A stretch of 64,000 nt of DNA from Pseudomonas lijiangensis (lineage in GTDB: Bacteria; Pseudomonadota; Gammaproteobacteria; Pseudomonadales; Pseudomonadaceae), in contig NZ_CP076668.1 of NCBI RefSeq assembly GCF_018968705.1, forward strand, positions 1,178,001 through 1,242,000, written 5' to 3'. Under the pieces are notes generated by a model, which did not search any database, was not told the DNA's origin, and was given only the letters and a program-made list of their open reading frames with translations. Both the position numbers and the translations under genes were made by a program. Numbering within the stretch: the first letter of the stretch is position 1; every line of letters begins with the position of its first letter. Shown here one piece after another: positions 25,497 through 61,019 of the stretch.

Positions 25497-25499
25497 GGC

Positions 25500-26522: not shown

Positions 26523-26554
26523 GTTCAAATACCTTTTAGGAAGATGGTCAGCAG

Positions 26555-28874: not shown

Positions 28875-28977
28875 GTTCGGAACCTTTAATAATCGACTGA
28901 GCGGATGCCAGTCCCATTAGTGCTTTGGGGTAATTCACTCTCTGCATATGCCTTCCTTGTATTGATGTTGATTCATT

Positions 28978-32340: not shown

Positions 32341-33314
32341 GCGGCGCTGCCTCCAAGTTGCTCGGCAACGTCCTTGAGACTATCGATCATGAAGTCCAGT
32401 GCTTCACTGCGGGTCAGGTTCTCGATGCAGGCCTGACGAAACGCCTGTTCATCGTCGCCGCGCATGGCTGAGATAAAAGCCTGCGGCAGAATCAGCCCGT
32501 CCTTGACCAGGTCTGCGGCATCGAACACCAGCCCGCCACGTCGGGTCTTGCCGTGCAGCACTGCCAGACCATGGGGCAGGCCCAGCACCCAGGTGGCGGT
32601 TGCAGCCAGGCCATAAGCGAGGTAATTGCCATGATCGAGAAAACGGTTGGCCGGATCACCGCCTGAGCCACGTTTGGCGCGCACGAAGTCGCCATACTTC
32701 ATGGCTGTGGCAGCCAGCTTGAAAAGGCGCTTGGTCAGCCTTGCTTCTTCGGTCAGCAGAAAGGTGTGGTCCGGGGCGTTATTGAGGGCTGTAAGAGATT
32801 GCGCCAAAGCGTTGTCGAGTTCGACCGGATCGACCTTGAACCCGGCCTTGGCAAAGGCCTTGTGCTCGATCCACTGGAGTCGGATATGTTCCAGCCGCAA
32901 GCGCTGAAAAGCCTTCGCGGCTTCCAGACGCAGATCGTCCCTGAACCAGAACGTCACCCAGCGTTGCAGGTATTCAGTAGGCCGATATTCGCTTTGCGGC
33001 GAGAACCAGGCGACCTCGATATCGATCTCGTTGGCACTGAACAACGGCGTACCGCCACCGCCGCAAAAGCCCACCAGCACACCCGCCTTGGCCAACTCAC
33101 GCATCGCCGCCTGAGTGACCGAAGTCCCCGTGCCCAGCAGCACGGTCGTGGTATTGGCGATGGGGATATTCCAGTACAGCGACTGCTTGCCCGCATCGGT
33201 CACATACTCGACCCGACCGCCATTCACCAATACCCGGCAATGCTGCAGATAATAAATATTCGCGCGTTTTGAATGCAGGATCGTCTTGAGATCCGAAGAA
33301 CTGATGTCATCCAT
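32337..33314 (-). CDS. cas1: Cas1 integrase of type I-F
   Basis: Cas1 of 325 residues, the integrase that inserts new spacers at the leader end. The N-terminal ILHSKRANIYYLQHCRVLVNGGRVEYVT and the middle LLGTGTSVTQAAMRELAKAGVLVGFCGGGGTPLF are diagnostic for type I-F Cas1. The C-terminal helical domain carries NRFLDHGNYLAYGLAATATWVLG and LPHGLAVLHG (metal-site region). First gene of the cas operon; its upstream 237 bp lie between it and the far end of array 2. Confidence 0.97.
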   Translation of the reverse strand: MDDISSSDLKTILHSKRANIYYLQHCRVLVNGGRVEYVTDAGKQSLYWNIPIANTTTVLLGTGTSVTQAAMRELAKAGVLVGFCGGGGTPLFSANEIDIEVAWFSPQSEYRPTEYLQRWVTFWFRDDLRLEAAKAFQRLRLEHIRLQWIEHKAFAKAGFKVDPVELDNALAQSLTALNNAPDHTFLLTEEARLTKRLFKLAATAMKYGDFVRAKRGSGGDPANRFLDHGNYLAYGLAATATWVLGLPHGLAVLHGKTRRGGLVFDAADLVKDGLILPQAFISAMRGDDEQAFRQACIENLTRSEALDFMIDSLKDVAEQLGGSAA

Positions 33315-33551: not shown

Positions 33552-34540
33552 TTTGTGAGCTGCCTGTTCGGCAGTTAATGAGAGCAGATGACCATTAATG
33601 ACCGGGTCGTATTTCTGAGCTGCTTATGCGGCAGTGAAGGTGGATTTCTATTACTGGGAAGATGGCGATATTTTCTAAGCTGCCTAGACGGCAGTGAAGA
33701 GCATACAGGCAATGCCCGGCTGGATCGCCACTTTTCTAAGCTGCCTACACGGCAGTGAAGGGCGGCGTATCTCGGCCAGCCAAGTTTTGTAATTTCTGAG
33801 CTGCCTACACGGCAGTGAAGTATGAACGCAGCCACCGCTTGGATCTGCCAGCATTTCTGAGCTGCCTACACGGCAGTGAAGTCTGCTGTGCTCATGTGCT
33901 GCTCCAGTTTTTATTTCTGAGCTGCCTACACGGCAGTGAAGAAGGAGGTGATGCAGACAGTGGTACGGGAAATTTTCTGAGCTGCCTACACGGCAGTGAA
34001 GTCTTCGACGAAAGGGCTTGAGCAAGCGTTGCATTCTGAGCTGCCTACACGGCAGTGAAGTGAGTACCCTACAGGCTTGAAGCCCCCGCTCAATTCTGAG
34101 CTGCCTACACGGCAGTGAAGGAAAGCAGTCGGCCTCATGCCTAGTGACACTGATTCTGAGCTGCCTACACGGCAGTGAAGGCCGGTGGCGGCGGTTATGC
34201 CTTCAAGTTTGTATTCTGAGCTGCCTACACGGCAGTGAAGCGTTCGGCATATGGCATTGGCGGGCGAATGGAATTCTGAGCTGCCTACACGGCAGTGAAG
34301 GGGCTCAAGCACTAGGTTCAGATCGGTATGCTATTCTGAGCTGCCTACACGGCAGTGAAGCGTATTCGTCTGCTTGTTCCAAAGCCATCATCATTCTGAG
34401 CTGCCTACACGGCAGTGAAGCTGCCAAGCGTCCTCGAAAGCGAAGAGCTGAAATTCTGAGCTGCCTACACGGCAGTGAAGCAGCGACTCAAGGAGAAGTG
34501 GTCATCGTTCATATTCTGAGCTGCCTACACGGCAGTGAAG
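33552..34540 (-). CRISPR. Type I-F CRISPR array 2: 17 repeats, 16 spacers
   Basis: Read on the minus strand, repeats are CTTCACTGCC-GTGTA-GGCAGCTCAGAAA or -AAT, 28 bp, with spacers of 31-33 nt. The leader lies at the right (34541 onward), so transcription runs leftward into the cas1 promoter region. The nine leader-proximal repeats (34033-34540) end in T where older ones end in A. The oldest repeats (33552, 33612, 33672) are degenerate, with the 33552 copy losing much of the conserved end. Confidence 0.97.
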
Positions 34541-35168: not shown

Positions 35169-35436
35169 CTTCACTGCCGTGTAGGCAGCTCAGAGACGCC
35201 CAAGCCCAGCATCGCGCTGGGCCGAGGCCTTCACTGCCGTGTAGGCAGCTCAGAGAATCATGCCCAATCGAGCGAACTCGATGCCCCGCTTCACTGCCGT
35301 GTAGGCAGCTCAGAGACATGAGTGGCGAGATCACAGCCCAGTACTCACCTTCACTGCCGTGTAGGCAGCTCAGAGATACGGCCGAGATCGTTCGCACCGT
35401 CATGGGCACTTCACTGCCGTGTAGGCAGCTCAGAGA
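35169..35436 (+). CRISPR. Type I-F CRISPR array 3: 5 repeats, 4 spacers
   Basis: Five perfectly conserved 28-bp repeats (CTTCACTGCC-GTGTA-GGCAGCTCAGAGA) at 35169, 35229, 35289, 35349 and 35409 with 32-nt spacers. All end in AGAGA, a variant not seen in the other arrays. The array lacks a decayed end: 16 bases after the last repeat a REP element begins, suggesting truncation. The first spacer contains a perfect 7-bp hairpin. Confidence 0.96.
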
Positions 35437-35538: not shown

Positions 35539-35655
35539 ACAAGCCAACTCATTCGCGAAAGGCCTTGAAGGCATCCTGCACAAACCTTCTAGACTTCCCA
35601 TCCCCCATGCGCGATAACACGCTTCTCTATCCCCTTGTTTGCCCATAAGCCTGCC

Positions 35656-36498
35656 ATGACTCAGAGCAACTGGATCAATCTTGCTCAGGACCGCGATACC
35701 GGTATCGAGACGCTGCATGCGCATTTCGAGGGGAATGCTCATGCCTATGATCCTCACTGGCATGACAGTTATCTGGTGGGTGTGACGGAGCAGGGGGTTC
35801 AGCAGTTTCATTGTCGGCAGCAACGTTATGCCAGCACGCCGGGTCAGGTGTTCATGCTGGAGCCGGGTGAGATTCATGATGGGGATGCGCCCAGCGCCGA
35901 GGGTTTCACGTATCGGACGCTGTACCTCGACCCGCACTGGATCGCCCGCGAACTGCCCTCGCTGTTTGAAGAGGCGCCGGATGGCTATCAACTGGGGTTC
36001 TCCGATACGTTGGCAAGCGACCCTCGACTGACCAATGCCACCCTCTTTGCATTTGCCGCGTTGCACGGGCAGGAAACGCGGTTGTTCCGGCAAAGTGCCC
36101 TCGATGGATTGCTGGAGCGGCTGACCAGCAATCTGCGCTGGCGGCTTCGGCAGAATCAGGACCCGCGTCTGCCTCAGGTGGCCTTGCGCGCCCGTGACTA
36201 CCTGCATGCCCACTTTCGACGCGACCTGGGGCTGGATGAACTGGCCAAGGTCTGTGGCGTGGATCGCTTTCGTCTGAGTCGTGCCTTCAAGTCGGCGTTT
36301 GGCCTGCCGCCCCATGCTTATCTGGTGCAACTGCGTCTGGCTCAGGCCAGAAGAATGCTGGCCGCAGGCGCATTACCCGTTCAGGTCGCCAGCGACCTGG
36401 GTTTTGCTGACCAGAGTCACCTGGGCCGCTGGTTTCTGCGGGCCAACGGCATGACCCCTTCGGCCTACCGAAACCGCTGCACGGATCTTCCAGACTAA
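35656..36498 (+). CDS. AraC family transcriptional regulator
   Basis: Regulator of 280 residues: N-terminal cupin-like AraC-binding domain (HAYDPHWHDSYLVGVTEQG, PGQVFMLEPGEIHDG) and C-terminal double helix-turn-helix (about 180-275) with LAKVCGVDRFRLSRAFKSAFG and VASDLGFADQSHLGRWFLRAN. The ATG at 35656 is preferred over the TTG at 35635. The next gene, a LysE exporter, is 50 bp downstream on the same strand; this pair is common and the regulator probably controls the exporter. Confidence 0.92.
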   Translation: MTQSNWINLAQDRDTGIETLHAHFEGNAHAYDPHWHDSYLVGVTEQGVQQFHCRQQRYASTPGQVFMLEPGEIHDGDAPSAEGFTYRTLYLDPHWIARELPSLFEEAPDGYQLGFSDTLASDPRLTNATLFAFAALHGQETRLFRQSALDGLLERLTSNLRWRLRQNQDPRLPQVALRARDYLHAHFRRDLGLDELAKVCGVDRFRLSRAFKSAFGLPPHAYLVQLRLAQARRMLAAGALPVQVASDLGFADQSHLGRWFLRANGMTPSAYRNRCTDLPD

Positions 36499-36548
36499 AG
36501 CCCTTTGCCGGGCGAGCATGAGTGCATCCCGCTTCTGGAGTTGTGCGC

Positions 36549-37115
36549 ATGCTGTCCTTCATGTTGTTTGCCTTTGTTGCCTCGATTACGCCTGGCCCGA
36601 CCAATATTCTGGTGCTGAGCAACAGTGCCCGTTATGGCTTTCGCGCCAGCCTGCCGATCATTTTCGGGGGCTGCATGGGGGCCGCTGTTCTGGTGTGGCT
36701 GGTGGGAACAGGAGTGGGGCGTTCTCTGATGCAGATACCGGGAGCGCATCAGGTGATGGCCACCGTCGGCGTGCTCTGGCTGACCTGGCTGGCGTGGAAG
36801 ATTTTCAACAGCGCCAGCACCATCGAACAGGACGACAAGCAGAACCGGCTCGGTTTTATCGGCGCGGCAGGTCTGCAAGTGGTCAATCCCAAGACATGGA
36901 TGATGGCGCTGGCGGTGGTCAGTGTGTTCAGCAAGGGGACGGTGGTCGATCTGGCGCTGGTGTTCTTTCTGGTATCGGTACCGTGCTTGGTGTGCTGGGC
37001 ATTGCTGGGCCGGGGATCGGCACGACTGCTCAAATCGGAGCAGGCCATGCAGCGGTTGAACCGTGGCATGGCGCTGCTATTGCTGGTGTCGGCGTGGGCA
37101 GGCTTCTTGCGTTGA
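36549..37115 (+). CDS. LysE family amino acid exporter
   Basis: Inner-membrane exporter of 188 residues with about six helices, of the LysE/RhtB superfamily that exports amino acids or similar metabolites. Signature sequences: FVASITPGPTNILVLSNSARYG at the start, GFIGAAGLQVVNPKTWMMALAVVS in the middle. GGAG lies 9-12 bases before the ATG. It follows the AraC regulator. Substrate unknown. Confidence 0.92.
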   Translation: MLSFMLFAFVASITPGPTNILVLSNSARYGFRASLPIIFGGCMGAAVLVWLVGTGVGRSLMQIPGAHQVMATVGVLWLTWLAWKIFNSASTIEQDDKQNRLGFIGAAGLQVVNPKTWMMALAVVSVFSKGTVVDLALVFFLVSVPCLVCWALLGRGSARLLKSEQAMQRLNRGMALLLLVSAWAGFLR

Positions 37116-37117
37116 AG

Positions 37118-37513
37118 TCAGCTTTCACACCTCGCAACCGCCTCGATTTCGATCAGATACCCATGATGCAGAACCGGCACGGGGACCACGGCACGGGCCG
37201 GGCGATGCTGACCCAGGCAGCGGGCGTAGAGCTGATCGAACGCGGGCCAGTGTTCGATGCCGACGATATAGACGGTCACCTTCAACAGATCATCAGCACC
37301 GCTGCCCGCCTGTTCAAGAATCGCCATCAGGTTATTCAGGGCAATGGTGGCCTGCACCTCGAACGGCTCGTCGACACTTTGGCTGCCATCGGCGCGCACC
37401 GGTAACTGGCCGGACACCCACAACAGACCTTGGTGGCGCACGGCTTGTGAATAATGCCCGCCCGGTGCGGCGGCGTTTGGGGTATGGATCAGGTCTATCG
37501 GTTTACCAGCCAT
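37118..37513 (-). CDS. RidA family enamine/imine deaminase
   Basis: Soluble protein of 131 residues of the YjgF/YER057c/UK114 family. RidA hydrolyses reactive enamines and imines made by PLP enzymes. Family blocks: HYSQAVRHQGLLWVSGQLPV, VQATIALNNLMAILEQAGSG, DDLLKVTVYI, and LGQHRPARAVVPVPVLHHG with the active-site Arg. Its ATG at 37513 lies inside the end of the upstream PLP-enzyme gene (11-bp overlap), so translation is probably coupled. Confidence 0.92.
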   Translation of the reverse strand: MAGKPIDLIHTPNAAAPGGHYSQAVRHQGLLWVSGQLPVRADGSQSVDEPFEVQATIALNNLMAILEQAGSGADDLLKVTVYIVGIEHWPAFDQLYARCLGQHRPARAVVPVPVLHHGYLIEIEAVARCES

Positions 37514-38636
37514 GCAGGCGACTCCAGGTTTGTGCTTCGCCATCGGCATCAAGGGCGTGGTAATGGGGGAATTGCGCACCTGTTGCGCAGGCATGGTTCG
37601 GCAGGATGCGCAGGCGGCTGCCAATCGGGAAGAGGGCGGTCAGGTCGTCTGCCGGTGTTTGCAAGGTGACGATGCCGTGTTCCTGATTGGCGCTTTGCAA
37701 TAGAGCGCCGTCGACCCATTGGCCGTCTTCAGTGCATACCTGGCCATAGGCGAAATCCTGTTGCTGGCGTTGGGTGCCGCGGTCGCGGCTCATGGCCATC
37801 CAGCCCGAGTCGGTAATGATCCAGCCCTTGTCCAGTTGATGGCCGATGACTGTGGTCAACACGCTCAAGGCCAGCTCATCGGCCTGGCACACACCCACGT
37901 TATGCATCACCAGATCAAAGAACACATACACCCCGGCGCGCACTTCGGTGACGCCTTGCAGATCGTCAGCCGACAACGCCGTGGGCGTCGAGCCGATACT
38001 CACTTGAGGGCACCGCAGGCCAGCCGCCCGAATCCGCTCGGCAGCGCCGACGCACTGATCGCGTTCCTGTTCGGCCAGCCGCTGCAGGGCTTCGGCGGTG
38101 TTCAGTTCATAACTGGAGCCTGCATGGGTCATGACCCCGACGAGGCGCATCCCGCCCTCATGCAGCACCTGCGCGACTTCGATCAGCACCTCATCGTCGT
38201 ACTTGATGCCCGAGCGATGGCCATCACAGTCGACCTCGATCCAGACGTCCAGCACTTCACCTTGCTCCTGAGCAAAAGTGACGATGGCCCGGGCACCGGC
38301 AACGCTGTCGGTGATGATGCTCAGTGCGCAGCCCTGACGTTTGAGCGCCAGCGCCTGAGGTAACTTGCCGGGCACCATGGCGACGGCGTAGAGAATGTCG
38401 CTGATGCCAGCCGCAAAGCAGTGCCCGGCTTCTTTCAGGGTCGACACCGTGACGCCTCTTGCACCCGCAGCTATCTGCGCCTCGATCACCGGCAGGCACT
38501 TGCTGGTTTTGACATGCGGGCGCAGGCGAACACCCAGGCCGTCCATGCGTTGCTGCATGCGCTGGATATTGCGCTGCATTCTGGCCACATCAATGATCGC
38601 GGCAGGTGTTTCCAGGTTGGAGAGGACGTTGGGCAT
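37503..38636 (-). CDS. DSD1 family PLP-dependent D-amino acid lyase
   Basis: Fold-type III PLP enzyme of 377 residues of the D-serine dehydratase / D-threonine aldolase (DSD1) family. The PLP Lys is in LRPHVKTSK (about 44), the barrel ends with VSIGSTPTALS, and the C-terminal PNHACATGAQFPHYH holds the His and Cys metal ligands of this family. Known members act on D-serine, D-threonine or D-threo-3-hydroxyaspartate; sequence alone does not choose. The downstream RidA would clear the enamine that a dehydratase makes. A LysR regulator is divergent. Confidence 0.88.
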   Translation of the reverse strand: MPNVLSNLETPAAIIDVARMQRNIQRMQQRMDGLGVRLRPHVKTSKCLPVIEAQIAAGARGVTVSTLKEAGHCFAAGISDILYAVAMVPGKLPQALALKRQGCALSIITDSVAGARAIVTFAQEQGEVLDVWIEVDCDGHRSGIKYDDEVLIEVAQVLHEGGMRLVGVMTHAGSSYELNTAEALQRLAEQERDQCVGAAERIRAAGLRCPQVSIGSTPTALSADDLQGVTEVRAGVYVFFDLVMHNVGVCQADELALSVLTTVIGHQLDKGWIITDSGWMAMSRDRGTQRQQQDFAYGQVCTEDGQWVDGALLQSANQEHGIVTLQTPADDLTALFPIGSRLRILPNHACATGAQFPHYHALDADGEAQTWSRLHGW

Positions 38637-38732: not shown

Positions 38733-39614
38733 ATGATCACCATCGAAGACCTGCGCCTTGCCGTGACTCTGGCCCGCTCCGAATCCCTGAGCGCAGCCGC
38801 CAGAACCCTCAATGTTTCTCCGCCTGCGCTGTCCATGCGTTTGCGCAAGCTGGAGGCTTTGCTGGGTTCCAGCCTGGCCAGTCGGGATGCCCGGCGCCTG
38901 AGCCTGACGGCAGAAGGTGAACGTTTTGCCAGAGAAAGCGCGATATTGCTGGAGCGTCTGGAAGCGCTGCCCGAGTCTTTCAAACAGCCTGACGATCAAC
39001 TGACCGGCACCCTGCGGCTCGCCGCGCCCTTCGGCTACGGTCGCCAACGCATCGCGCCCCTGCTGGCCCGTTTTGCGAAGCTCCATCCGGGATTGCGTCT
39101 GCACCTGGACCTGCGCGAAACACCCTGGCCGGATCGTCATGACAGCGATGCCGTGATCCATATCGGCAGTATCAATGACAGCTCATGGGTGGCCCGTACC
39201 CTGGTGCAAAACGAACGTTGGCTGTGTGCCAGCCCGCAATACCTGAAAACCCATGGCGTGCCCCAGAGCCCGGCCGAACTGGCGAACCATCGCTGCATCT
39301 GCATCCGTGAGAATGAAGAAGACGTCACGCTCTGGCACCTGCGCAAACAGACCGCCCGGCATACCGTGCGCATCGAGCCCGCCATGCTCTGCAACGACGG
39401 CAGCGTTGCCCGGCGCTGGGCCGAGCAGGATCAAGGGCTTGTTCTGCGTTCCGAGTGGGACGTGAGCGACGCCGTCCAGACCGGCGCTCTGGTCAGGGTA
39501 CTGGCCGACTGGTCCTTCGAGAGCGCCCCCATTCTGCTGCTGGTGCCGTCACGCAAACACCGCAGTGCGCGGATGCAGGCGCTGATGGGATTTCTTGAGG
39601 CGTCGTTGAAGTGA
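38733..39614 (+). CDS. LysR family transcriptional regulator
   Basis: Regulator of 293 residues. N-terminal winged helix (ITIEDLRLAVTLARSESLSA, LNVSPPALSMRLRKLEALLG) and C-terminal type 2 periplasmic-binding fold (about 90-290). It is divergent from the DSD1-ridA operon with 96 bp between the starts, the usual place for a LysR regulator of that operon. The start ATG at 38733 has no strong Shine-Dalgarno sequence. Confidence 0.92.
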   Translation: MITIEDLRLAVTLARSESLSAAARTLNVSPPALSMRLRKLEALLGSSLASRDARRLSLTAEGERFARESAILLERLEALPESFKQPDDQLTGTLRLAAPFGYGRQRIAPLLARFAKLHPGLRLHLDLRETPWPDRHDSDAVIHIGSINDSSWVARTLVQNERWLCASPQYLKTHGVPQSPAELANHRCICIRENEEDVTLWHLRKQTARHTVRIEPAMLCNDGSVARRWAEQDQGLVLRSEWDVSDAVQTGALVRVLADWSFESAPILLLVPSRKHRSARMQALMGFLEASLK

Positions 39615-39723: not shown

Positions 39724-40479
39724 ATGAATCAAAGTGGATACCTGTGCCTGGCCTTCATGATCATCGTGGGCTGCCTGAGCTTTTTTCTGCAACCCGAGGC
39801 CGCTGGCGTTTCATTTGCCCTGATTGGCCTGTTTTCCTGCAGCTACTTTGTCTATTTCCTGATCAAGAACAACCTGCACCACGGCATCATTCGTGGCCTG
39901 CTGCTCTCGGTGCTGGTCATGGCGCTGGCGGTCATCCCGGTTCTGGGCTGGATCGTGGTCATCGGTTTTGTGATCTACAACATATCCAAAGCTGTGGATG
40001 GTCTTAAAAGCCTTATCCCTGACGTGCTCACCAGCGTGGTCATTTATGGCCTGCTGTTTTCCCGGCTGGCTTTCGATATTCGCGACCCGGTGGCGATTGC
40101 CGCTCTGGCAGCCGCTTACCTGATCGCTTCGATTGTTTACTGCCGAAGCCTCAGCGAGCTGCCCACCCCAAGCGCTCTGTTCAAGATGAGCATCATGTGG
40201 CTGTCGATCCCTTTTGCGGCGCTGACGGTAATCTCCATCGTTTCGGCTCTGGGCAACCTGTTCCGCACCATCAGTTCTACCATCACTTACACGGTCATGC
40301 GGCCGCAAGTGGTTTCAGCCCACATGCGCGGCGGCATGCCGATTGATTCCTATACCCGCAACATCAGCACCACCGTCAACGCAACCGTGACGCGAGTCGT
40401 GCCGGGTGTGGGGGGCGTGGTGACGACGTCCATGGCCGGCGAAGTGGCGCAGAAGGTCAAAGAGGAAAAGCCAGAGTAA
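39724..40479 (+). CDS. Polytopic membrane protein of unknown function
   Basis: A 251-residue membrane protein with about six or seven hydrophobic segments between residues 5 and 190 (YLCLAFMIIVGCLSFFL, GLLLSVLVMALAVIPVLGW, VAIAALAAAYLIASIVY, SIPFAALTVISIVSALG). The last 60 residues are polar and Val/Thr-rich (TRNISTTVNATVTRVVPGVG) and end in a charged tail KVKEEKPE. No family recognised. Stands alone. Confidence 0.65.
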   Translation: MNQSGYLCLAFMIIVGCLSFFLQPEAAGVSFALIGLFSCSYFVYFLIKNNLHHGIIRGLLLSVLVMALAVIPVLGWIVVIGFVIYNISKAVDGLKSLIPDVLTSVVIYGLLFSRLAFDIRDPVAIAALAAAYLIASIVYCRSLSELPTPSALFKMSIMWLSIPFAALTVISIVSALGNLFRTISSTITYTVMRPQVVSAHMRGGMPIDSYTRNISTTVNATVTRVVPGVGGVVTTSMAGEVAQKVKEEKPE

Positions 40480-40543: not shown

Positions 40544-40774
40544 CTAGAGGTCTTTCTTCACTTCCTTGTCCACATGCTTGTCGGCCTTGTGGCGTTCTTC
40601 ATCATCGTGCTTGAGGCCTTTTTCGGCTTCCTTGGCGTCATGCTCGACACCCTTGTCCACTTCACGATTGTCGTGCCTTACGCCTTTCTCCAGCTCGCTT
40701 TCAGCAAGGGCCGGACTTGCGAAGCTGCCCAACAACAGCGTTGCAGCGAATGTCGCCATCACTAGCTTCTTCAT
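40544..40774 (-). CDS. Small periplasmic charged repeat protein
   Basis: A 76-residue exported protein. The ATG at 40774 is preceded by GGAGAAG; an ATG four codons upstream is less well placed. Signal peptide MKKLVMATFAATLLLGSFA, then SPALA, mature from ESELEKG. The mature part is built of short units of the type KGV-HD-EVDKGVEHDAKEAEKGLKHDDEE, rich in Lys, Asp, Glu and His and lacking bulky residues. It is probably a single amphipathic or disordered helix. Possible metal or stress role is speculation. Confidence 0.65.
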   Translation of the reverse strand: MKKLVMATFAATLLLGSFASPALAESELEKGVRHDNREVDKGVEHDAKEAEKGLKHDDEERHKADKHVDKEVKKDL

Positions 40775-40948
40775 AGACTTCTCCATTTCCTGAACGGCCG
40801 TCCCTTCATGGGGCGATCAGGTTCAACGATAGACGAGTCAGGAACAGGCATGGGGTTTTGTACCTGGATGCTGGTTAAAGGCTATATGGCATCATTTGCT
40901 TGTCTGTTAAGGTTCTGCCCCACCAATGGATCAATATGAATCAGGACG

Positions 40949-43900
40949 ATGAACGAAGACGCTCTCAAATTCGCCAAATACTGGCGCAACTCTCTGGTCG
41001 ATGCCGAAAATGGTAGCGGTGGTCTCAAACCTGATGGTCTGACCGATCATATTCGCCTTCCGTTCGAGGCTTTGCAGTCAGGGTATCTAGGGAGCGAAAC
41101 CGTCGAATCCCTGTTCAAGGATGAGCCTGAGCGATCCCAGAGTATTGAGGTCACTATTCGGCCCTGGGTTTTCAGGGCGCGACTTGAGCACGGCAAAGTC
41201 CGCAGCGGCATGCATGCGATAGTGACGCCACTGATCGGGCATGTGCGGGTCAATCGCCACGGGCAACTTTTCCCGACCGCCAACACCGTCATACCGCGTG
41301 ACATTCTCGACCCATTGGAGTCGGGCAGTTTCTCGCTGGGTGATGTCGCCGATGTGGATACCTTTCTGGCAGTCAATACGCTACCGGCCTTTGAGCCGCC
41401 GGAAGACGGCCAGGTGGCAGATGCCGATGAGTATGCCCGGCAATGGGCTGCCTACCTGCAGTTCTGTGAACACTTTCTAGAGGAGGTCAGCCCTGGCTGG
41501 CTGCAAGGCGACAACGGTTATGAGCGCTCGAATGAGTGGTGTCTGTTCAAGGAGGAAAAGATATCCGGGGCCAGCCAGCATATTGTTCGTCTGTACGATC
41601 ACATACGTGATACGAAACCCGGCAGTGCGCTCTTTGAACGTTATGCCAGTCAAGTCACTCTTGCTCCCGAACCCTGTCTGCTGAAAAGCGCAGGTTTTGC
41701 AGCGCGTCTTGGGCATGCCAGCGATCAATACGCTCTGGCCGATGAGCAACGCGATGCGCTGGCGCATTTTCTGGCATCCCGCCACGGCGATATTCTGGGT
41801 GTGAACGGGCCGCCCGGCACCGGCAAGACAACGCTGCTGTTATCCGTGGTTGCATCTCTGTGGGCCGAGGCGGCGCTTGCTCAGGCCGAGCCTCCGGTGA
41901 TTGTGGCCAGCTCCACCAATAACCAGGCCGTGACCAATATTCTCGATGCCTTCGGTTCGGATTTCGCCAAGGGTGATGGCCCTTTTGCCGGACGCTGGTT
42001 GCCGGATATCGACAGTTTCGGGGCCTATTTTGCAAGCGCATCTGCCAACCCTGAAACAGTACGCAAGTATCAGAGCCAGAGTTTCTTTGCCAAGACCGAA
42101 TCCTCGGCCTATCTGACGCGTGCACAAGGCGAATGGTTGAGCAACGCGGCGTTGGCCTTTGCGGGCACTGCGCCGCTCACGGTCGATGTAGCCGTCAAAC
42201 AGTTGCATCAGGCACTTGAGGCCCGCGCCAACGAGCTGAGGGTGATCGAGCAGTCATGGGATGCGCTTGTCAAGGCTCGTGAGGCACTTCGAGCCGAATG
42301 GGGCGATGACCCCGATGCCGGTATCGAACGTGCGCGGACGGCGGTACAGACGCTCAAGGCCCAGAGCGCTCGATTCAAAGCCCTTGAAACCTCATTGCGT
42401 CAGTATCTGGCCGATGAACCTCTGTGGTACGTGCTGTTTGCCTGGATCGCGCCCGTACAGCAAAAACGTCGGCTGCGGGCTTGCCTGCATATCGAGCGCA
42501 GCCACCTCGATCCGCAGACTTCAGAGCCTCTGCTCAGTGAAGAGCAACTGGAGCAGTTGTCATCGCTGAACAAGGTGTCGGCAATCAGTGATGCCCTGGT
42601 GGCCTGGCATAAGGCTGTTAAAGAGCAGGTCGTCACGCAGGAAGCCAGAATCGTCAGTGCTCAAGCCCTGCTGCAGGCACGGCAGCAATGCCTGACAAAC
42701 TGGCAGAGAGCATTGCTGCCTCTGGAACTGCCTGCCGATGCGGTCACCGACGACATGACGCTCAGCGAGTGCGATGCACTGGCCGACACCCGCATACGCT
42801 TCCCGATTTTCCTGTTGAGTACCCATTATTGGGAAGGGCGATGGCTGCTTGAGCTTGAGCAGACCTTGCCGGATATCCTGAAAAACCCCAAAGCCAATGG
42901 CCGCAAAGCTCTGGAGAAACGCTGGCATCGCTGGATGAAGCTGACCCCCTGTGTGGTGTCGACCTTCTTCATGTTGCCCAGCTATCTGAAAGGCAGCAAA
43001 TATAACGGCAGTGGCTACGACGATGACTACATGTACGAGCTGATCGACCTGTTGATCGTCGACGAGGCCGGTCAGGTCCTGCCGGAAGTGGCGGGGGCCT
43101 CCTTCGCCCTGGCCAAAAAAGCGCTGGTCATTGGCGATACGCTGCAAATCGAGCCTATCTGGTCGATTCCCGATTCGGTGGATATCGGCAACCTGATGAG
43201 CGCCGGGCTGTTGCCACGGGTTGGCGTGGACCAGGCTTATGAAACACTCTGCGCCACCGGTGTCAGTGCGGCCTCGGGCAGCGTGATGCGCATTGCCCAG
43301 AATGCCAGTCGCTATCATTACGACCTCGACATGGACCGCGGGATGTTCCTCTACGAACATCGTCGTTGCTACAACTCGATCGTCGATTACTGCAATGCCC
43401 TCTGCTATCAGGGCAAGCTGGTGCCCAGACGTGGTGAAAAACCTCAAGGCGGATTACCGGCACTGGGTTATCTGCATGTGGATGGTATTTGCCAGCAGCA
43501 GAACGGCCGGAGCCGGATGAACCGTCTGGAGGCAGAAACCATCGCGCAATGGCTTGTCGCCCATCGCTCGCAGCTTGAGGAACGTTATGGCCAAAAAGAG
43601 CTGTGGGAGATCGTCGGGATCATCACCCCCTTTGGCGCTCAGTCCCAGGCTATCGCCGAGGCATGCGATGCCAGCGGTATCAAGACCGGCAAGGGCGATG
43701 GCGAGCTGACCGTGGGCACCGTGCATTCCTTCCAGGGCGCGGCGCGCCCCGTGGTGATCTTTTCGGCGGTGTATTCCAAGCACGCCAATGGCGGTTTCAT
43801 CGACCGCCGCTCAAGCATGCTGAACGTCGCAGTCTCCCGCGCCAAAGACAGTTTTCTGGTCTTCGGCGACATGGACCTGTTCGGCATGGTGCCTGAAACC

Positions 43901-44479
43901 AAGCCGCGAGGCCTGCTGGCTGAATACCTGCTGCGCGACCCTGCCAGCGAACTGGTATTTCAATACCAGCCGCGCAAGGACCTGCAGACTTCTCGCTCAA
44001 CCTTTAGCCATCTGACCAATGCACCGGCCCACGATCAGTTCCTGCTCAAGACCCTGGCGACTGCAACACGCGAAGTGCACATCGTTTCACCGTGGATCAT
44101 TTTGCAGCGCATCCATGACATCGGTGCCTGGCAAGCCATGACTGACGCCGTGGCACGTGGCATCAAGGTGAAGGTTTATACGGATCGGGATTTCAATCTT
44201 CGTGCAGGCTGGGAAAAGAATCCGAGTGAGGCGCTCAGGCAGGCCCTGCAATCATTGCGAGGTCAGCAGATCGAATCCCATGTCGTGCGCAAGGTGCATA
44301 GCAAAATCGTCATGGCCGATGATCAGTTACTGTGCATGGGGTCATTCAACTGGTTCAGCGCAAATCGCGGCAGCGGGGCCAATTATGAAACCTCCATGGT
44401 GTATCAAGGACCTGATGTGGCGAGCGAGATAGGCACCCATCGGCAGAGTCTCGCTGCACGTATCGACCCTGTGCATTGA
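40949..44479 (+). CDS. SF1 helicase-PLD nuclease fusion, Mokosh type II-like defence protein
   Basis: A 1176-residue protein. The first 250 residues are unassigned. An SF1 (COG1112/DNA2-NAM7) helicase follows: Walker A GPPGTGKT (287-294), motif II DEAG (705-708), GTVHSFQGAARPVVIFS (motif V, about 923-939) and LNVAVSRAKDSFLVFGD (motif VI, about 959-974). Residues 420-600 are an inserted helical, partly coiled region. The C-terminal 150 residues are a phospholipase-D domain with one HKD motif, H1117-S-K1119 and D1124. This single-chain layout is that of MkoC, the type II Mokosh anti-phage protein, in which a helicase and a PLD nuclease are fused. It is a stand-alone gene 5 kb from the CRISPR arrays. 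Confidence 0.85.
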   Translation: MNEDALKFAKYWRNSLVDAENGSGGLKPDGLTDHIRLPFEALQSGYLGSETVESLFKDEPERSQSIEVTIRPWVFRARLEHGKVRSGMHAIVTPLIGHVRVNRHGQLFPTANTVIPRDILDPLESGSFSLGDVADVDTFLAVNTLPAFEPPEDGQVADADEYARQWAAYLQFCEHFLEEVSPGWLQGDNGYERSNEWCLFKEEKISGASQHIVRLYDHIRDTKPGSALFERYASQVTLAPEPCLLKSAGFAARLGHASDQYALADEQRDALAHFLASRHGDILGVNGPPGTGKTTLLLSVVASLWAEAALAQAEPPVIVASSTNNQAVTNILDAFGSDFAKGDGPFAGRWLPDIDSFGAYFASASANPETVRKYQSQSFFAKTESSAYLTRAQGEWLSNAALAFAGTAPLTVDVAVKQLHQALEARANELRVIEQSWDALVKAREALRAEWGDDPDAGIERARTAVQTLKAQSARFKALETSLRQYLADEPLWYVLFAWIAPVQQKRRLRACLHIERSHLDPQTSEPLLSEEQLEQLSSLNKVSAISDALVAWHKAVKEQVVTQEARIVSAQALLQARQQCLTNWQRALLPLELPADAVTDDMTLSECDALADTRIRFPIFLLSTHYWEGRWLLELEQTLPDILKNPKANGRKALEKRWHRWMKLTPCVVSTFFMLPSYLKGSKYNGSGYDDDYMYELIDLLIVDEAGQVLPEVAGASFALAKKALVIGDTLQIEPIWSIPDSVDIGNLMSAGLLPRVGVDQAYETLCATGVSAASGSVMRIAQNASRYHYDLDMDRGMFLYEHRRCYNSIVDYCNALCYQGKLVPRRGEKPQGGLPALGYLHVDGICQQQNGRSRMNRLEAETIAQWLVAHRSQLEERYGQKELWEIVGIITPFGAQSQAIAEACDASGIKTGKGDGELTVGTVHSFQGAARPVVIFSAVYSKHANGGFIDRRSSMLNVAVSRAKDSFLVFGDMDLFGMVPETKPRGLLAEYLLRDPASELVFQYQPRKDLQTSRSTFSHLTNAPAHDQFLLKTLATATREVHIVSPWIILQRIHDIGAWQAMTDAVARGIKVKVYTDRDFNLRAGWEKNPSEALRQALQSLRGQQIESHVVRKVHSKIVMADDQLLCMGSFNWFSANRGSGANYETSMVYQGPDVASEIGTHRQSLAARIDPVH

Positions 44480-44530: not shown

Positions 44531-45430
44531 TTAGTGGGGCGGGTGTCGAACGCACCGGTTATTCAGAAAACCTGAAATCTCCTGCGCCAGTTCCCGCGCA
44601 TGTTCCGGGTTACTACGAAACCAGGCCGAAACAGCATGATCGCATCCGGGCAGCACATGCTTTTTGAAAGCGTGAGGGCGCAGGTGTTTCTCGATAGCCT
44701 CGATCACTTCATAAGGAATCGGGCTATTGATAATGCGCTCGTGCGGTGTGCCCTGATCTATTGTCACTGTTCCGGCCGATGTACCCGCCACGTTGCCGAA
44801 GGCCGTGGATTCAAGGCCATCAAACTCTCCGATCACCAGCATCAGTTCTCCCTCGAACTCATTCAGGAATTCAAGGGACGATGAATCAAGAAAGCTATAC
44901 GGAACTGAAATGACGCTTTTGAACGGCTCGCCAAATGGCTGTTGATAAGCGGCATCCGAATACAGAGCCGGGCAGAAAAGGATGATTTTCCTGACACTGG
45001 CCTTGTGGGCTTCAGCCACTTTCAGGGCCAGTGCTCCGCCCAGACTGTGGCCGATCACCGTGTCGAAACCTGTGCCCAGGCAACTGGCAAACCGCAGGGC
45101 TTCTTGCAGGTTATTGCCCAGTGAAGTGTCTGGCAGCTGGATATCGGTTGTCGTGTTATGCCCAGAAAGATTGAAACTCAGACTGGCAACGCCCGACGCC
45201 TGCAAAGGATAAAGAATGCCATTCAGTTTGCTGTAGTCCGAGCGGGCACCATGAATGGCCAGCACCTTTGGCAGTGCATCTGGCGATGCGGCATTTGCGA
45301 GGATTCGGCCTTCAAGTTCATAACCCTCGAAGGCCTGTGAAAAATAACGGGCAGGGCCTGTCGGCGTTTCATCGAACTGCAACCGGGATCGAATTCGAGA
45401 GCGGTGAGATAACGCCGACAGATTGATCAT
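44531..45430 (-). CDS. Alpha/beta hydrolase
   Basis: Cytosolic serine hydrolase fold of 299 residues. Oxyanion region VLAIHGARSDYSKLNG, nucleophile elbow GHSLGG (about 127-132), acid LVIGEFDGLES and catalytic His in LPGCDHAVSAWF. The substrate is unknown. It is the last gene of a three-gene operon and overlaps the transporter upstream by 4 bp (ATGA), so it is cotranslated with it. Confidence 0.88.
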   Translation of the reverse strand: MINLSALSHRSRIRSRLQFDETPTGPARYFSQAFEGYELEGRILANAASPDALPKVLAIHGARSDYSKLNGILYPLQASGVASLSFNLSGHNTTTDIQLPDTSLGNNLQEALRFASCLGTGFDTVIGHSLGGALALKVAEAHKASVRKIILFCPALYSDAAYQQPFGEPFKSVISVPYSFLDSSSLEFLNEFEGELMLVIGEFDGLESTAFGNVAGTSAGTVTIDQGTPHERIINSPIPYEVIEAIEKHLRPHAFKKHVLPGCDHAVSAWFRSNPEHARELAQEISGFLNNRCVRHPPH

Positions 45431-46218
45431 AACGAAGCCAGTGTGTGAATGAAGGCAACTCGCAACGGGTTGGTTTCCACGCTCAAGAGTTTAATGGCCA
45501 GCGCGCAGCACACCACCACCAACATGGGCTTGATCAACCGTGGCCCGACCCGCACTGCGGCCCGCGCACCCAGTTGTGCGCCAGCAAAAGCCGCCAATGC
45601 CATGGCAATCGCTATCGGCCAGACAATCACGCCTTTGGTGATAAAGACCGACAAGGAACCCAGGTTGCAGGACGCATTCGCCAGTTTGGTAAAACTCATG
45701 GCCCGCATCATGCCCAGGCCGCAGAGCAACACGAAACCGACAATAAAGAACGAACCGACACCTGGGCCAAATATACCGTCGTAAAAACCCAGGGCAGGTG
45801 CCACGGTAAAAGAGAACAGCAGAATGCCGATTCGTTTACGGCGATCTTCATTGCCGATCTTTGGCGAGAACGCAAAATAAAGCGCAACCAGAATCAGCAT
45901 TACCGGCACGCAGACTTCCAGATAGCGTTTGTCGATAGAACTGACCAGCAAGGCACCACTGGCCCCGCCGATAAATCCACAGAGCACCAGAAAGCGACCT
46001 TCCCGCCATTCGATCATGCCTTTACGGGCAAAAGTGATCGTTGCCGAAACGGTGGCCGAAGCAGCCTGAAACTTGTTCGTGGCAATTGCACTGATAGGGT
46101 CGACGCCCGCCAGAAACAGCGCCGGCAAAGTGATCAGCCCGCCACCTCCGGCAATTGCATCAAAAAAACCGGCGCAAAAAGCCACAAGCGCCAACATGCC
46201 AATCAAATCCCAGGCCAT
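45427..46218 (-). CDS. TSUP family transporter (TauE/SafE)
   Basis: Membrane protein of 263 residues with about eight helices and the two-fold family pattern: GFFDAIAGGGGLITLPALFLAG in the first half and GFYDGIFGPGVGSFFIVGFVLL in the second. The TSUP family moves sulfite, sulfonates or organic anions. Here it lies between a hydrolase and an oxygenase gene, so it may move the substrate or product of that pathway (inference). Confidence 0.9.
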   Translation of the reverse strand: MAWDLIGMLALVAFCAGFFDAIAGGGGLITLPALFLAGVDPISAIATNKFQAASATVSATITFARKGMIEWREGRFLVLCGFIGGASGALLVSSIDKRYLEVCVPVMLILVALYFAFSPKIGNEDRRKRIGILLFSFTVAPALGFYDGIFGPGVGSFFIVGFVLLCGLGMMRAMSFTKLANASCNLGSLSVFITKGVIVWPIAIAMALAAFAGAQLGARAAVRVGPRLIKPMLVVVCCALAIKLLSVETNPLRVAFIHTLASL

Positions 46219-46300: not shown

Positions 46301-47380
46301 TCAACCACGCAACAACAGCGGGTCCTCTGAAATAATCAGAGGGGCAGAGAATTTGGACAGGCCAAATATGCGCACCAATACTCGCCGGTTGTCCTTGATG
46401 ACATCCCGACAATGCAAAGCCCGAATGTTATTGATGACCATTGCCGATTCCTGGGTCAGTACATATTCACAAGGCGTGGCTTCTTTAATGCCTTCGCAAA
46501 GCGCGGAGTAAGCCTTTTTCACAAAGGGCGAAGCGTTTTCATTGACTGAAAAACGATACGAGTTGAAGCGGGCTGCGAAGCCGACTTTATTGTCGAACTC
46601 CAGAATCGACACCCCGCGACCGTCTTCGCCTTTGCCGCTGACAAAAGAGTCACTGCGGGTGAACTGGAAACTGCCGGTGGTCAGCGCCAGGCAGTTCGTG
46701 ACGCCGATCTTGTCCAGCACAGGCGGGAGTGGAATGACGGTGGTCGGCTCCAGACTCGGGTTCCACAGGGCCGAAAGGATCAGCGAAGACGGCGAGGGTG
46801 AATGTCCGTCCCGGGCGTTCACGGCACACCAGTAAGGGGCTTCGGTATGAGGCCCGAGCGCCAGGCCCGAATGGGAACTCAGCTCCTTGACCTCTGGCTC
46901 GTCGGTGATTCTGGTCAAGCCTCCGCCTTTGAAGTTGGCGACCAGACGAACCAGTTTCCCTTCGTTGTCCATGTCATAGGCAAAGGAGCTGTTATCCACC
47001 AGCTTCAGCAGGATCTGGTTGCGGGCGGCCATGCACAGCACGTCGTGCCGATCTTCCAGCGCTGCCAGCTCCGGCAACTCATCGGGTGGGCTGTCACTGC
47101 TGATCCTTTGCAGGCCTTCGAATATCAGCAGCGAGATAAGACCATCGGAGTAGGCAAGCAGAAGTTCTGATTGCTCTTTCGACATCGAGAACTTCAACTC
47201 AGTGGCCGCGACAGACGCCTTGGCCCTGGCACCCGCTGCCTGCGGCCCTCCAATGGCCGCCAACTCTTCGCAGAACGTATGCAGCAGTGTTGACTGCTGA
47301 ACATCAAAGCTGAACGTTCTGACTTCCTGATGGGCGAGAGAGATAACGGATTCGGTACTTTGTTTTATAGCGGTGGTCAT
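46301..47380 (-). CDS. Clavaminate-synthase-like Fe(II)/2-oxoglutarate oxygenase
   Basis: A 359-residue protein of the TauD/clavaminate synthase superfamily. The facial triad is visible: H178 and E180 in LGPHTEAPYW, distal His at 323 in NNIRALHCRDVI, followed by an Arg-rich RRVLVRIFG segment likely to hold 2-oxoglutarate. Relatives hydroxylate free amino acids such as arginine (VioC) or the clavulanate precursor. The ATG at 47380 is spaced correctly from AGGG; an ATG at 47389 is alternative. First gene of an operon with a TSUP transporter and a hydrolase. Substrate unknown. Confidence 0.8.
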   Translation of the reverse strand: MTTAIKQSTESVISLAHQEVRTFSFDVQQSTLLHTFCEELAAIGGPQAAGARAKASVAATELKFSMSKEQSELLLAYSDGLISLLIFEGLQRISSDSPPDELPELAALEDRHDVLCMAARNQILLKLVDNSSFAYDMDNEGKLVRLVANFKGGGLTRITDEPEVKELSSHSGLALGPHTEAPYWCAVNARDGHSPSPSSLILSALWNPSLEPTTVIPLPPVLDKIGVTNCLALTTGSFQFTRSDSFVSGKGEDGRGVSILEFDNKVGFAARFNSYRFSVNENASPFVKKAYSALCEGIKEATPCEYVLTQESAMVINNIRALHCRDVIKDNRRVLVRIFGLSKFSAPLIISEDPLLLRG

Positions 47381-47918
47381 GTGTGACATCCCTGTGGTGC
47401 TTTGCACCTTTTTTATTGTTTATAGGCACTGCTTGAACAACAACGCACAAGGCCCTGCATATCAAACGATGCATGGCTTCAGGTTGATGCAAATCCATGA
47501 AGTTTTTAAAGGCACAGATATGCCGCTGACACGTTCAAAAGCGAAGTGCCTATCAATGCCTGTGTTACGCGCAATACGTAACGTGCATGGATTTTTTCTA
47601 GCGTAATCGGAGTGCTCGCAGGGAATGGCAGAGCAAGAGTGACGGGTGCGGCAGTGCTGTGTGTGCTTGAGGGCGCATATAGGAAAACCTGGCAGATTGT
47701 TTTTATTTTGATTTTCTGTAGCGAGTCTTTCAAAGTGGGTCGGGAATATTGAAACTTCCCGGGGCAGTTAATGACCCACTGAAAAACGCGCCGAGATTAA
47801 CATCAAAATAATGGCCAGCAAATTATTTTGATAAGGCTGTCCTTTTGGCCGTGACAGGCGAACGTCATGGAAGGGATATTCGGTGCCTGTTGCACACAGC
47901 CGCAACAGGCACTGTCAC
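47381..47918. promoter_or_regulatory. Intergenic region with perfect 11-bp inverted repeat
   Basis: No gene is supported in 538 bp. ATCAAAATAAT (47802-47812) and ATTATTTTGAT (47822-47832) form a perfect inverted repeat with a 9-nt spacer, about 90 bp past the LOV kinase stop and upstream of the oxygenase operon on the same strand. With A/T-only arms it is more like an operator than a terminator. Confidence 0.5.
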
Positions 47919-49520: not shown

Positions 49521-49858
49521 ACACCCACCCTCAACGCTCGGCCACACCAGTGAATCATAAGAGCGTTATCTTACCTGTTCGGTTCCGGAGGGTTATATAC
49601 GGTAGGGCAAAAGAGTGGGGTAAGTGATCAGTCAAGGTCAATAAATCACTTTGTGGGAGGCAGCTTGCTGGCGACTTCAGCGTACGACGCAGAATATCTG
49701 CCAGTTTCAGGACTTTTTCGCCAGCAAGCTGCCTCCCACAAGTTTTGTTTGATGAGTGCGCGCAGGGGCATGGCAGGCAAGTGGTGGCCCTCTTGAAGGC
49801 TTGGCAGTCTTCCTGCACCATCCTGCACTCTGTTATTTCACTGGATGAAATTCACGGC
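49521..49858. other. Intergenic region between LOV kinase and vgrG
   Basis: 338 bp that separate two divergent genes. The only structure seen is the REP element at 49651-49741 (separate entry). No gene; the longer open frame from 49745 into vgrG is out of line with the family start. Confidence 0.5.
49651..49741. repeat. REP element with perfect 24-bp arms
   Basis: TTGTGGGAGGCAGCTTGCTG plus GCGA (49651-49674) pairs exactly with the arm at 49718-49741. Same family as 34868-34958. Lies upstream of vgrG. Confidence 0.85.
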
Positions 49859-52150
49859 ATGCTGGACGCAAACGCTACCCATATATCCTTGGCGCTCGAA
49901 GGCGTTTCCACCGATCTGCAAGTCCTCAGCTTCATCGGTCGCGAAGCCCTGAATCAGCCCTACCGTTTCGATATCGAACTGGTCAGCAGCCGTCCTGATC
50001 TGAAGCTCGAAGAACTGCTGCACAAGCGCGGCAGCCTGACCTTCGGTGCCACGGGAAAAGGCCTCATTCATGGTCTGGTCTACCGCATCGAACAAGGCGA
50101 CTCCGGCAAGAAGCTGACCCGCTACAGCATCAGCCTTGTCCCGCAACTCGCCTACCTGCAGCACAACCATGATCAGCAGATCTTCCAGCACCTGACGGTG
50201 CCAGAGATCATCGCTCAGGTTCTGGAGGCGCGAGGCATTCTGGCCGATGCCTACCGCTTTCAACTCGGTGCGACCTATCCCGAGCGCGATTACTGTGTTC
50301 AGTACGACGAGTCCGACCTGCATTTCATCCAGCGTCTGTGCGAAGAAGAGGGCATTCACTTCCACTTCCAGCACTCCGCCAGCGGCCACACGCTGGTGTT
50401 TGGCGACGACCAGACGGTGTTCCGCAAACTCGCCCCCGTGAGCTATCAGCAGGATTCCGGCATGGCGGCCGAAAAACCGGTCATCAAGCGCTTCAACCTG
50501 CGCCTGGAAACCCGCACCACCCGCGTCAGCCGTCGCGACTACGACTTTGAGAAACCGAGCCTCCTGCCCGAAAGCAGCGCCAAGAGCGGCTTTTCACCCG
50601 ACCTTGAAGACTACGACTATCCCGGCCGCTTCACCGACCGTGCCCGTGGCAAGCAACTGGCGACCCGCGCCCTGGAGCGCCATCGCAGCGACTACCAGCT
50701 CGCCGAGGGCAAAGGCGACGAGCCGACGCTGGTCACGGGCCACTTTCTGGCCTTGAGTGAACACCCGCGAACCGAGTGGAACGACCTCTGGCTGCTGCAG
50801 GAAGTCATCCACGAAGGCAAGCAGCCGCAAGTGCTGGGCGAAAACATCACCAGCGACGTCACCGACAACAAGGACGACTTCCACCAGGGCTACCGCAACC
50901 GCTTTCTGGTCAGCCCGTGGGACGCCCATTACCGACCGCCACTGGCCCATCCCAAACCCCTGACCATCGGCAGCCAGAGCGCCATCGTCACCGGACCAAA
51001 AGGCGAAGAGATTCACTGCGACCCGTACGGTCGGGTCAAGGTGCAGTTCCATTGGGATCGTGAAGGGCAGGCCGACGACAAGACCAGTTGCTGGCTGCGG
51101 GTCGCCACCGGCTGGGCTGGCAGCGCCTATGGCGGCATCGCCATCCCGCGAGTCGGCATGGAAGTGCTGGTCACCTTCCTTGAAAACGACCCCGACCAAC
51201 CGCTGATCACCGGCTGCCTATTCCACAAGGAAAACGTCGTCCCCTACGACCTGCCAGCCCACAAGACCCGCAGCACCTTCAAGACCCTCAGCTCACCGGG
51301 CGGCAAGGGCTACAACGAGTTTCGCATCGAAGACAAGAAAGGCGCGGAACAGATCTACCTGCACGCCCAGCGCGACTGGGATGAAAACATCGAACACGAC
51401 CAGAAGATCCGCATCGGCAACGAGCGCCACGACACGGTCGAAGCCAACACCTTCAGCGAATTCAAGGCCGAAGAGCACCGCATCACCCATCTGGACCGCA
51501 AGACCGAAGCCCGTGCCGACGACCACCTGACCGTGGGCGCCACCCAGCACGTGAAAGTGGGCACGGGGCAGTTCGTCGAAGCCGGGACGGAGATTCACTA
51601 CTACGCGGGCGACAAGGTGGTGCTGGAAGGCGGCATGGAATTCACGGCCAAGGCAGGCGGGAGTTTCATCAAGATTGATGCCGGTGGTGTGACTATCAGT
51701 GGGGCGCAGGTGAAGACCAATTCGGGTGGGGCGCCGGGGGCCGGAGCCGGGCTTGGAATTCTGGCTCCGCTGATTCCGGGCCTCGCCGCTGCCGACAGAG
51801 CCGGGCAATTGATGAAAGCCGCCAAGGCCAACCCGACCTGGCTGGAGCTGAACCTGCATTACGACAACCTTGAGCCGGTGCCCGGCGCCTCCTATCGTGT
51901 TGAGTTTGCCGATGGCTCGACCCGAGAAGGCGTACTGGACGACGACGGATTTGCCCGCCTGGAAGACGTCCCCAAAGGCCCGGCCAAGGTGTATTACGGC
52001 GAAGACCCAAGGCCGTTCAACCGCGAAAGCGTAGCGGTTGTTCAGAGCTCGGACGAAAAGGTGAATGAAGATTTACGCAAACTCGGCCTGGACCCGGATC
52101 AGGTTGATTTACAGGCATTGGTGGAAAAAGCTGCAGGGAGGCTGTCATGA
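49859..52150 (+). CDS. vgrG: Type VI secretion spike protein VgrG with C-terminal extension
   Basis: VgrG (TssI) of 763 residues. The ATG at 49859 gives the usual N-terminus (DANATHISLALEGVSTDLQV). Domains: gp27-like (about 1-370, GLIHGLVYRIEQGDSG, LCEEEGIHFHFQHS), gp5-OB (about 390-470, GPKGEEIHCDPYGRVKVQFHWDREG, RVATGWAGSAYGGIAIPRVGMEVLVTF), and the beta-helix/DUF2345 region (DKKGAEQIYLHAQRDWDENI). After a Gly/Ala linker the last 90 residues (LELNLHYDNLEPVPGASYRV, DDDGFARLEDVPKG) look like a transthyretin-type cargo adaptor. It overlaps the effector gene by 4 bp (ATGA). Confidence 0.95.
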   Translation: MLDANATHISLALEGVSTDLQVLSFIGREALNQPYRFDIELVSSRPDLKLEELLHKRGSLTFGATGKGLIHGLVYRIEQGDSGKKLTRYSISLVPQLAYLQHNHDQQIFQHLTVPEIIAQVLEARGILADAYRFQLGATYPERDYCVQYDESDLHFIQRLCEEEGIHFHFQHSASGHTLVFGDDQTVFRKLAPVSYQQDSGMAAEKPVIKRFNLRLETRTTRVSRRDYDFEKPSLLPESSAKSGFSPDLEDYDYPGRFTDRARGKQLATRALERHRSDYQLAEGKGDEPTLVTGHFLALSEHPRTEWNDLWLLQEVIHEGKQPQVLGENITSDVTDNKDDFHQGYRNRFLVSPWDAHYRPPLAHPKPLTIGSQSAIVTGPKGEEIHCDPYGRVKVQFHWDREGQADDKTSCWLRVATGWAGSAYGGIAIPRVGMEVLVTFLENDPDQPLITGCLFHKENVVPYDLPAHKTRSTFKTLSSPGGKGYNEFRIEDKKGAEQIYLHAQRDWDENIEHDQKIRIGNERHDTVEANTFSEFKAEEHRITHLDRKTEARADDHLTVGATQHVKVGTGQFVEAGTEIHYYAGDKVVLEGGMEFTAKAGGSFIKIDAGGVTISGAQVKTNSGGAPGAGAGLGILAPLIPGLAAADRAGQLMKAAKANPTWLELNLHYDNLEPVPGASYRVEFADGSTREGVLDDDGFARLEDVPKGPAKVYYGEDPRPFNRESVAVVQSSDEKVNEDLRKLGLDPDQVDLQALVEKAAGRLS

Positions 52151-54701: not shown

Positions 54702-54737
54702 CTCTCTTTATGACTGCTGTTCGAGGGTGTCACCAAT

Positions 54738-54841
54738 TGCTCAAACAGGTCTTCGATGCCGGAAAACTGCGCGCCGAACTCGACAACATCATCACCGGCG
54801 TCAGCCAGAAAGTACGACGAACCAGTGTGCTTGAAGGTTGA
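54738..54841 (+). pseudogene. Relic of a T6SS effector gene between the two immunity genes
   Basis: 54738-54803 repeats 52517-52582 of the effector gene with two differences in 66 bp. In frame it reads LLKQVFDAGKLRAELDNIITGV, equal to residues 124-145 of the effector, then SQKVRRTSVLEG and a stop (54839-54841). No start codon or toxin tip precedes or follows. It is best explained as the remains of an earlier effector copy whose immunity gene survives downstream. Confidence 0.85.
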
Positions 54842-54852
54842 GGTGTGACGAT

Positions 54853-59963: not shown

Positions 59964-60022
59964 GGTTTTCATTCATCGGAAATGGCTGATGGAACTGCCC
60001 GAATTGTCGCCAAACAATGGGT

Positions 60023-60181
60023 GGCAGTTGTGTGTGGGTTGGCGAACCGGTAGCCATCTCCAAGCCCGGCAGGCCCGAAGGCCTCCCGCACACAACCGCC
60101 ATAACGCGATGAGCCGACAGGATAAAGCGCCGGCATCACGATGGGGAGAGATTTAGCTTTGTCGGGTCGCCAAACCCGGTC
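60023..60181 (-). ncRNA. C4-antisense-like structured RNA leader, first copy
   Basis: On the minus strand: GGTTTGGCGACC (60176-60165), a long stem with GCGGGAGGCC-TTCGGGCCTGCCGG, then GGTTCGCCAACC (60049-60038) and CAACTGCC (60030-60023). GGTTCGCCAACC is largely complementary to TTTGGCGACAA (60013-60005 region) and AACTGCC to GGCAGTT (59999-59993), 30 bases before the start codon. Two short complementary blocks before an antirepressor-type gene are the layout of phage C4 antisense RNA. The second copy shows a compensatory change here. Confidence 0.68.
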
Positions 60182-60958: not shown

Positions 60959-61019
60959 AGAGGCACACTTTTTATGGTCGCTGAAAAAAGCTGCCACGGA
61001 TTGTCGCCAAACAAATGGA

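Follow-up and report, generated by a model that had tools for sequence, protein, structure and literature searches.

Mokosh type I keeps its helicase (MkoA) and its PLD nuclease (MkoB) in two genes and, according to the available portion of PMC11672841, comes with a kinase domain, whereas Mokosh type II, in the definition of a later paper that we use here, has a single chain, MkoC, in which a helicase is followed by a PLD domain. Hachiman is, like Mokosh, a helicase-plus-nuclease defense, but its HamAB is a complex of two proteins (PMC12278908, in the excerpt available). A 2026 review lists the mechanism of Mokosh II as unknown (PMC12926258, likewise an excerpt), and a search of the partly accessible open-licence literature, a scope outside which most subscription papers lie, turned up surveys and brief mentions, with no biochemical or structural study of the system among them. 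Here we describe a gene in a stretch of 64,000 nucleotides (the window) from Pseudomonas lijiangensis (contig NZ_CP076668.1, positions 1,178,001 to 1,242,000). The gene, mkoC, lies at 40949..44479 on the plus strand. Mokosh type II anti-phage defense consists of one gene, and mkoC is probably an intact, chromosomal version of it. We see no difference of substance from the described MkoC, and the gene unites in one chain what type I divides between two.

The mkoC open reading frame runs from an ATG through 1176 codons to a stop with no internal stops, exactly the single chain proposed by an earlier, sequence-only reading. Its start methionine is unchanged throughout an alignment of 38 sequences (A1), the mkoC product and 37 relatives of 48–98% identity chosen from 120 listed of 2226. 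The first frame of the reverse complement contains many stops, and the longest opposite-strand frame listed over the gene has 295 residues. Pfam models AAA_12 (72 bits), AAA_11 (50), AAA_30 (39), and PLDc_2 (46) each exceed their cut-offs, in agreement with the proposed superfamily 1 UPF1-like helicase followed by a C-terminal PLD domain with one HKD motif, and all four helicase motifs named earlier were located in the protein. The presence of these motifs and domains is not due to chance. The N-terminal part (residues 1–258; 40949..41722) comprises helices and a small beta region in the structure model and probably occupies the place where UPF1-like helicases carry the stalk and domain 1B; folded alone, it gave no clear match to any solved fold in the match lists obtained. 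The Walker A motif GPPGTGKT (residues 287–294; 41807..41830) is followed by a helical insertion in RecA1 (approximately residues 386–665; 42104..42943), which in the predicted structure lies between motif Ia and motif II, the latter reading VDEAGQ (residues 704–709, with DEAG at 705–708; 43058..43075). RecA2 (approximately residues 760–1000; 43226..43948) contains the AAA_12 match and the motifs QGAARP (929–934) and VSRAK (962–966). The PLD-like nuclease domain (PLDc_2, residues 1032–1162; 44042..44434) holds the sole HKD motif (HxKxxxxD), HSKIVMAD, at residues 1117–1124 (44297..44320). The motor part has a predicted UPF1/IGHMBP2-like fold, and the solved structures that match it best are those of UPF1-like helicases with bound RNA. 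It differs from the eukaryotic UPF1 and IGHMBP2 by the long helical insertion in RecA1; to our knowledge, those helicases have no PLD domain. Neither promoter-like nor terminator-like signals exceeded those of shuffled sequences (1 against a mean of 1.6 and 3 against a mean of 3.4, respectively).

A profile search strongly favors the MkoC layout that the sequence-only reading had suggested. The PADLOC profile PDLC03924 scored 1334 bits, placing protein residues 1–1170 on profile positions 1–1134 of 1136, and because this match runs almost end to end, the N-terminal part and the helical insertion both belong to the normal make-up of MkoC. The N-terminal part of about 250 residues noted in the earlier reading is thus real but neither extra nor unassignable, as the profile spans residues 1–258; the helical insertion likewise exists, but its size, given as 180 residues, is nearer 280 in the model. 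The type I profiles score lower, MkoA at 108 bits on the helicase part and MkoB at 53 bits on the PLD part, as expected of a helicase–PLD fusion, and we rejected a two-gene type I system as helicase and PLD lie in one chain and no partner was found among eight scanned neighbors. A Pfam scan found no kinase domain in the mkoC product, and among those neighbors only a two-component histidine kinase. Other candidates fell far below their cut-offs: the helicase-like protein of the PLuB system scored 71 bits against 999, and DISARM DrmC 26.5 bits against 133 for the whole protein.

The functional positions of the protein are strongly conserved. Across the 38 aligned sequences, 38 of the 39 motif positions inspected are invariant, including Walker A, D705, E706, R964, H1117, K1119, D1124, and E1147, while N324 is kept in 36 of the 38. 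Mean identity is highest in the RecA parts (68–73%), followed by 53.8% in the PLD part and 48.5% in the N-terminal part, with the helical insertion at 40% the lowest of seven segments. Compared with two copies from the same genus, the ratio of nonsynonymous to synonymous substitution rates (dN/dS) is 0.101 and 0.106 for the whole gene and about 0.10 for the PLD part, ratios that are approximate as dS exceeds 1.5. The gene is under purifying selection. Together with the invariant motifs, this fits the predicted intact second anti-phage system. Among other copies, one in Ruegeria (L035:9974-13408) reads G at the aligned HKD aspartate and may be inactive or misaligned, and in one from Salmonella (L012:2389-5697) the reading frame stops ahead of the HKD motif and the similarity runs on past the stop.

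Of the 2226 proteins scored in the homology search, the top one is 98% identical and belongs to a cluster that bears the name Pseudomonas cichorii. The table of the 120 listed proteins, read by eye, shows a single one without PLDc_2, namely P0081, which has 1009 residues. Among the matches listed, identity is approximately 30–55% to PLD-bearing copies of other genera and approximately 43% to enterobacterial copies. Within the genus the gene is patchily distributed: full-length matches occur in 3 of 36 genomes, the window's own included, and, elsewhere in the order, in one (G055) of 21 genomes; 15 more of these 57 gave weaker matches only, mostly to the helicase core. Searching the DNA of 59 genomes of the genus revealed two more carriers (G061 and G073). 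In another genome (G025), only a decayed trace of the C terminus is left (L140:8723-8842; 41 residues, 54% identity, E value 7.7e-7 within the locus), which is evidence of mkoC loss within the genus. Homologs are also found on plasmids, where 274 of 72,556 records match and 40 reach at least 80% coverage, and on viral contigs, where three of the 18 loci have the full length, with 42–44% identity; none of the seven matching records of annotated phages reaches 80% coverage in one place.

We placed the protein among its relatives with a FastTree phylogeny of residues 1–994. The alignment had 93 sequences, with 18 named loci omitted as duplicate, incomplete, split, or remote and with 90 bits as the lower limit; removal of 11 more remote rows left 82 for the tree. 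Branch support is local only, and FastTree issued warnings about long branches being joined and about uneven composition. The mkoC product is nested in a starred 34-row clade with the PLD domain in all members, where its neighbor is 85% identical. A starred 20-row clade, mostly Bacteroidota, has PLD in none, and other PLD-less rows stand elsewhere in the tree. The presence and absence of PLD require five changes without the outgroup rows and seven with them, the starred branches alone forcing two. The distant helicases at L094:7421-11593, L096:7628-11458, and L097:9425-13252, of 1275–1390 residues, likewise have an HKD motif at their end; L094 and L097 lie outside the MkoC clade as outgroup and L096 is not in the tree, and they are possibly separate helicase–PLD fusions.

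The PLD-less homologs, mostly of approximately 940–1030 residues, retain the motor motifs. In a set of 28 loci (L054-L061, L063-L068, L072, L073, L077, L079-L082, L084, L090, L091, L098-L100, and L116), from which five short, split, or remote loci also without PLD were omitted (L050, L086, L087, L092, and L117), all 28 rows retain 10 of the 16 motor positions inspected, and each of the remaining six is retained in 27; most of the exceptions are gaps, which fall at motifs V and VI. Taken together, the motor motifs are intact in 27 of the 28 rows. These loci (up to approximately 10 kb per side, several shorter) gave no PLD-like sequence in any reading frame, while all six control loci scored in the same search (weakest best E value 5.7e-24). 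All eight homologs fetched from Tenacibaculum are without PLD (L068, L077, L079, L080, L081, L082, L098, and L099), and at least six of the loci are, by reading, followed directly by the same gene; mkoC of Tenacibaculum larymnensis, a strain outside this eight-locus comparison, is described as bearing a PLD effector in the available portions of PMC10013915 and PMC11672841. The seven PLD-less proteins tested with the MkoC profile scored 857–1036 bits, reaching position 963–967 of 1136, and as the profile also scores such proteins, Mokosh II calls made by profile alone need checking. By their sequences, the PLD-less homologs appear to form a widespread branch, and in the accessible parts of the open-licence literature we found no description of it as distinct from Mokosh II. 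We tentatively suggest, as one possible history, that the body of the MkoC motor stands alone as a module and has gained or lost PLD several times, the PLD-bearing proteins being the described defense form and the PLD-less ones a second widespread form. Both forms sometimes accompany defense genes, although the counts lack a background rate. In 20 PLD-bearing loci (115 of 117 listed genes scanned), at least eight neighbors match one type I methyltransferase model and at least five match type I specificity models, and in 20 PLD-less loci (113 of 113) there are, among the matches listed, single neighbor matches to type IIG, type III methyltransferase, DpdF, LmuB, GajB, and Cas1; the matches given are 25 of 268 matching families and 25 of 123, respectively.

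In the window, as the sequence-only reading had it, mkoC stands alone: none of the eight open reading frames scanned between 38733 and 52150 matches PADLOC, the AraC-, LysE-, RidA-, and serine-dehydratase-like genes at 35635-38636 (labels from reading the sequence) being outside the scan. Upstream are a LysR gene (38733-39614), a 251-residue frame without a Pfam match (39724-40479), and an 80-residue frame on the minus strand (40544-40786); downstream, an alpha/beta hydrolase (44531-45430) and TauE (45427-46218), both on the minus strand, and a frame without a Pfam match (46301-47407). In the same genus, the hydrolase, TauE, and the 368-residue frame occur together, with no DNA match to mkoC, in three genomes (G067, G035, and G075). 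In five others (G059, G034, G019, G070, and G076), LysR and the gene divergent from it occur without mkoC. The gene groups that flank mkoC on its two sides are thus otherwise separate from each other. An exact empty site was not found; matches to both flanks together occur in none of the 59 genomes besides the window's own. By reading, the neighbors at five other MkoC loci are mostly different; the copy in G021 adjoins type I restriction genes and those in G028 and G073 a two-component pair. Type I-F Cas genes (Cas6f, Cas7f, Cas5f, Cas8f, Cas3f, and Cas1f) lie on the minus strand at 24933-33314. Of the CRISPR repeats found with Rfam, three arrays are near these genes (23526-24754, 33552-34540, and 35169-35436), the nearest ending 5.5 kb upstream of mkoC, which agrees with the 6 kb given earlier, and the fourth, of the same Rfam repeat family, is 26 kb off beside a tRNA-Leu (61375-62243).

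The solitary position and the ordinary genes on both sides would also suit a housekeeping helicase for RNA or DNA that has PLD as an accessory domain and plays no role in defense, as would the abundance of PLD-less relatives and the shared downstream gene in Tenacibaculum. We consider this improbable, as the full-length gene is patchy and in one genome reduced to a remnant, its homologs travel on plasmids and viral contigs, and the IGHMBP2-type family model TIGR00376, which we rejected, scored 49 bits against a cut-off of 348.9; a housekeeping helicase without PLD is accordingly not the best match. Still less credible is a new branch, or a separate system merely resembling Mokosh II, as the sequence-only reading had allowed. 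The distance to the enterobacterial copies speaks for it and nothing else does, and it is contradicted by the end-to-end profile match and the nesting in a clade bearing PLD throughout, with no domain extra or missing. From its sequence, mkoC looks like a complete and conserved member of the known family.

The target of this Mokosh II protein is a separate question. Single-HKD PLD enzymes pair to build one nuclease center, and NucT and PLD6/Zucchini have one HKD motif per chain. MkoC shares this feature but has its PLD fused to a motor, and its sequence match to NucT and PLD6 is not significant (E values 0.19–0.57). Two MkoC chains may thus pair, their HKD half-sites forming one center. The motor would load on a single-stranded nucleic acid, which is probably RNA of the phage or an intermediate containing RNA, and would move 5'-3' with ATP, a polarity assumed from the UPF1-like group; engagement with the foreign substrate would place or unleash the PLD center, which would cut via a covalent phospho-histidine step at H1117. 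The same protein, with the same family membership, could instead act on DNA of the phage or on an intermediate of replication: its motor would sense abnormal single-stranded DNA and its PLD would cut DNA, somewhat as in Hachiman. We regard this as a real but lesser possibility and put RNA somewhat ahead, given the RNA-bound helicases among the top structural matches and a statement, cited in the available text of PMC11291487, that Mokosh degrades viral transcripts.

Elsewhere in the window, at 60017-61101, a Bro-N gene is flanked by two minus-strand matches to C4 antisense RNA (75 and 72 bits); this stretch adjoins the fourth CRISPR array and the tRNA-Leu and resembles the remnant of a phage or satellite. 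At 49745-55794, a VgrG-like gene, a 534-residue frame without a Pfam match, and two PoNi-type immunity genes likely form a type VI secretion effector cluster.

With mkoC, a Pseudomonas genome that also holds a type I-F CRISPR-Cas locus is seen to have a complete Mokosh II gene, and formerly unassigned parts of its protein are shown to belong to the MkoC family. As the MkoC profile does not demand the nuclease, profile-based counts of Mokosh II may include PLD-less proteins. Whether the motor or the nuclease protects is left open in the open-licence literature, as far as accessible, and the PLD-bearing and PLD-less forms bear on this question. If the motor body is indeed a stand-alone module, the activity shared by the family would be motor translocation or sensing rather than cutting, and the PLD domain would be one optional effector.
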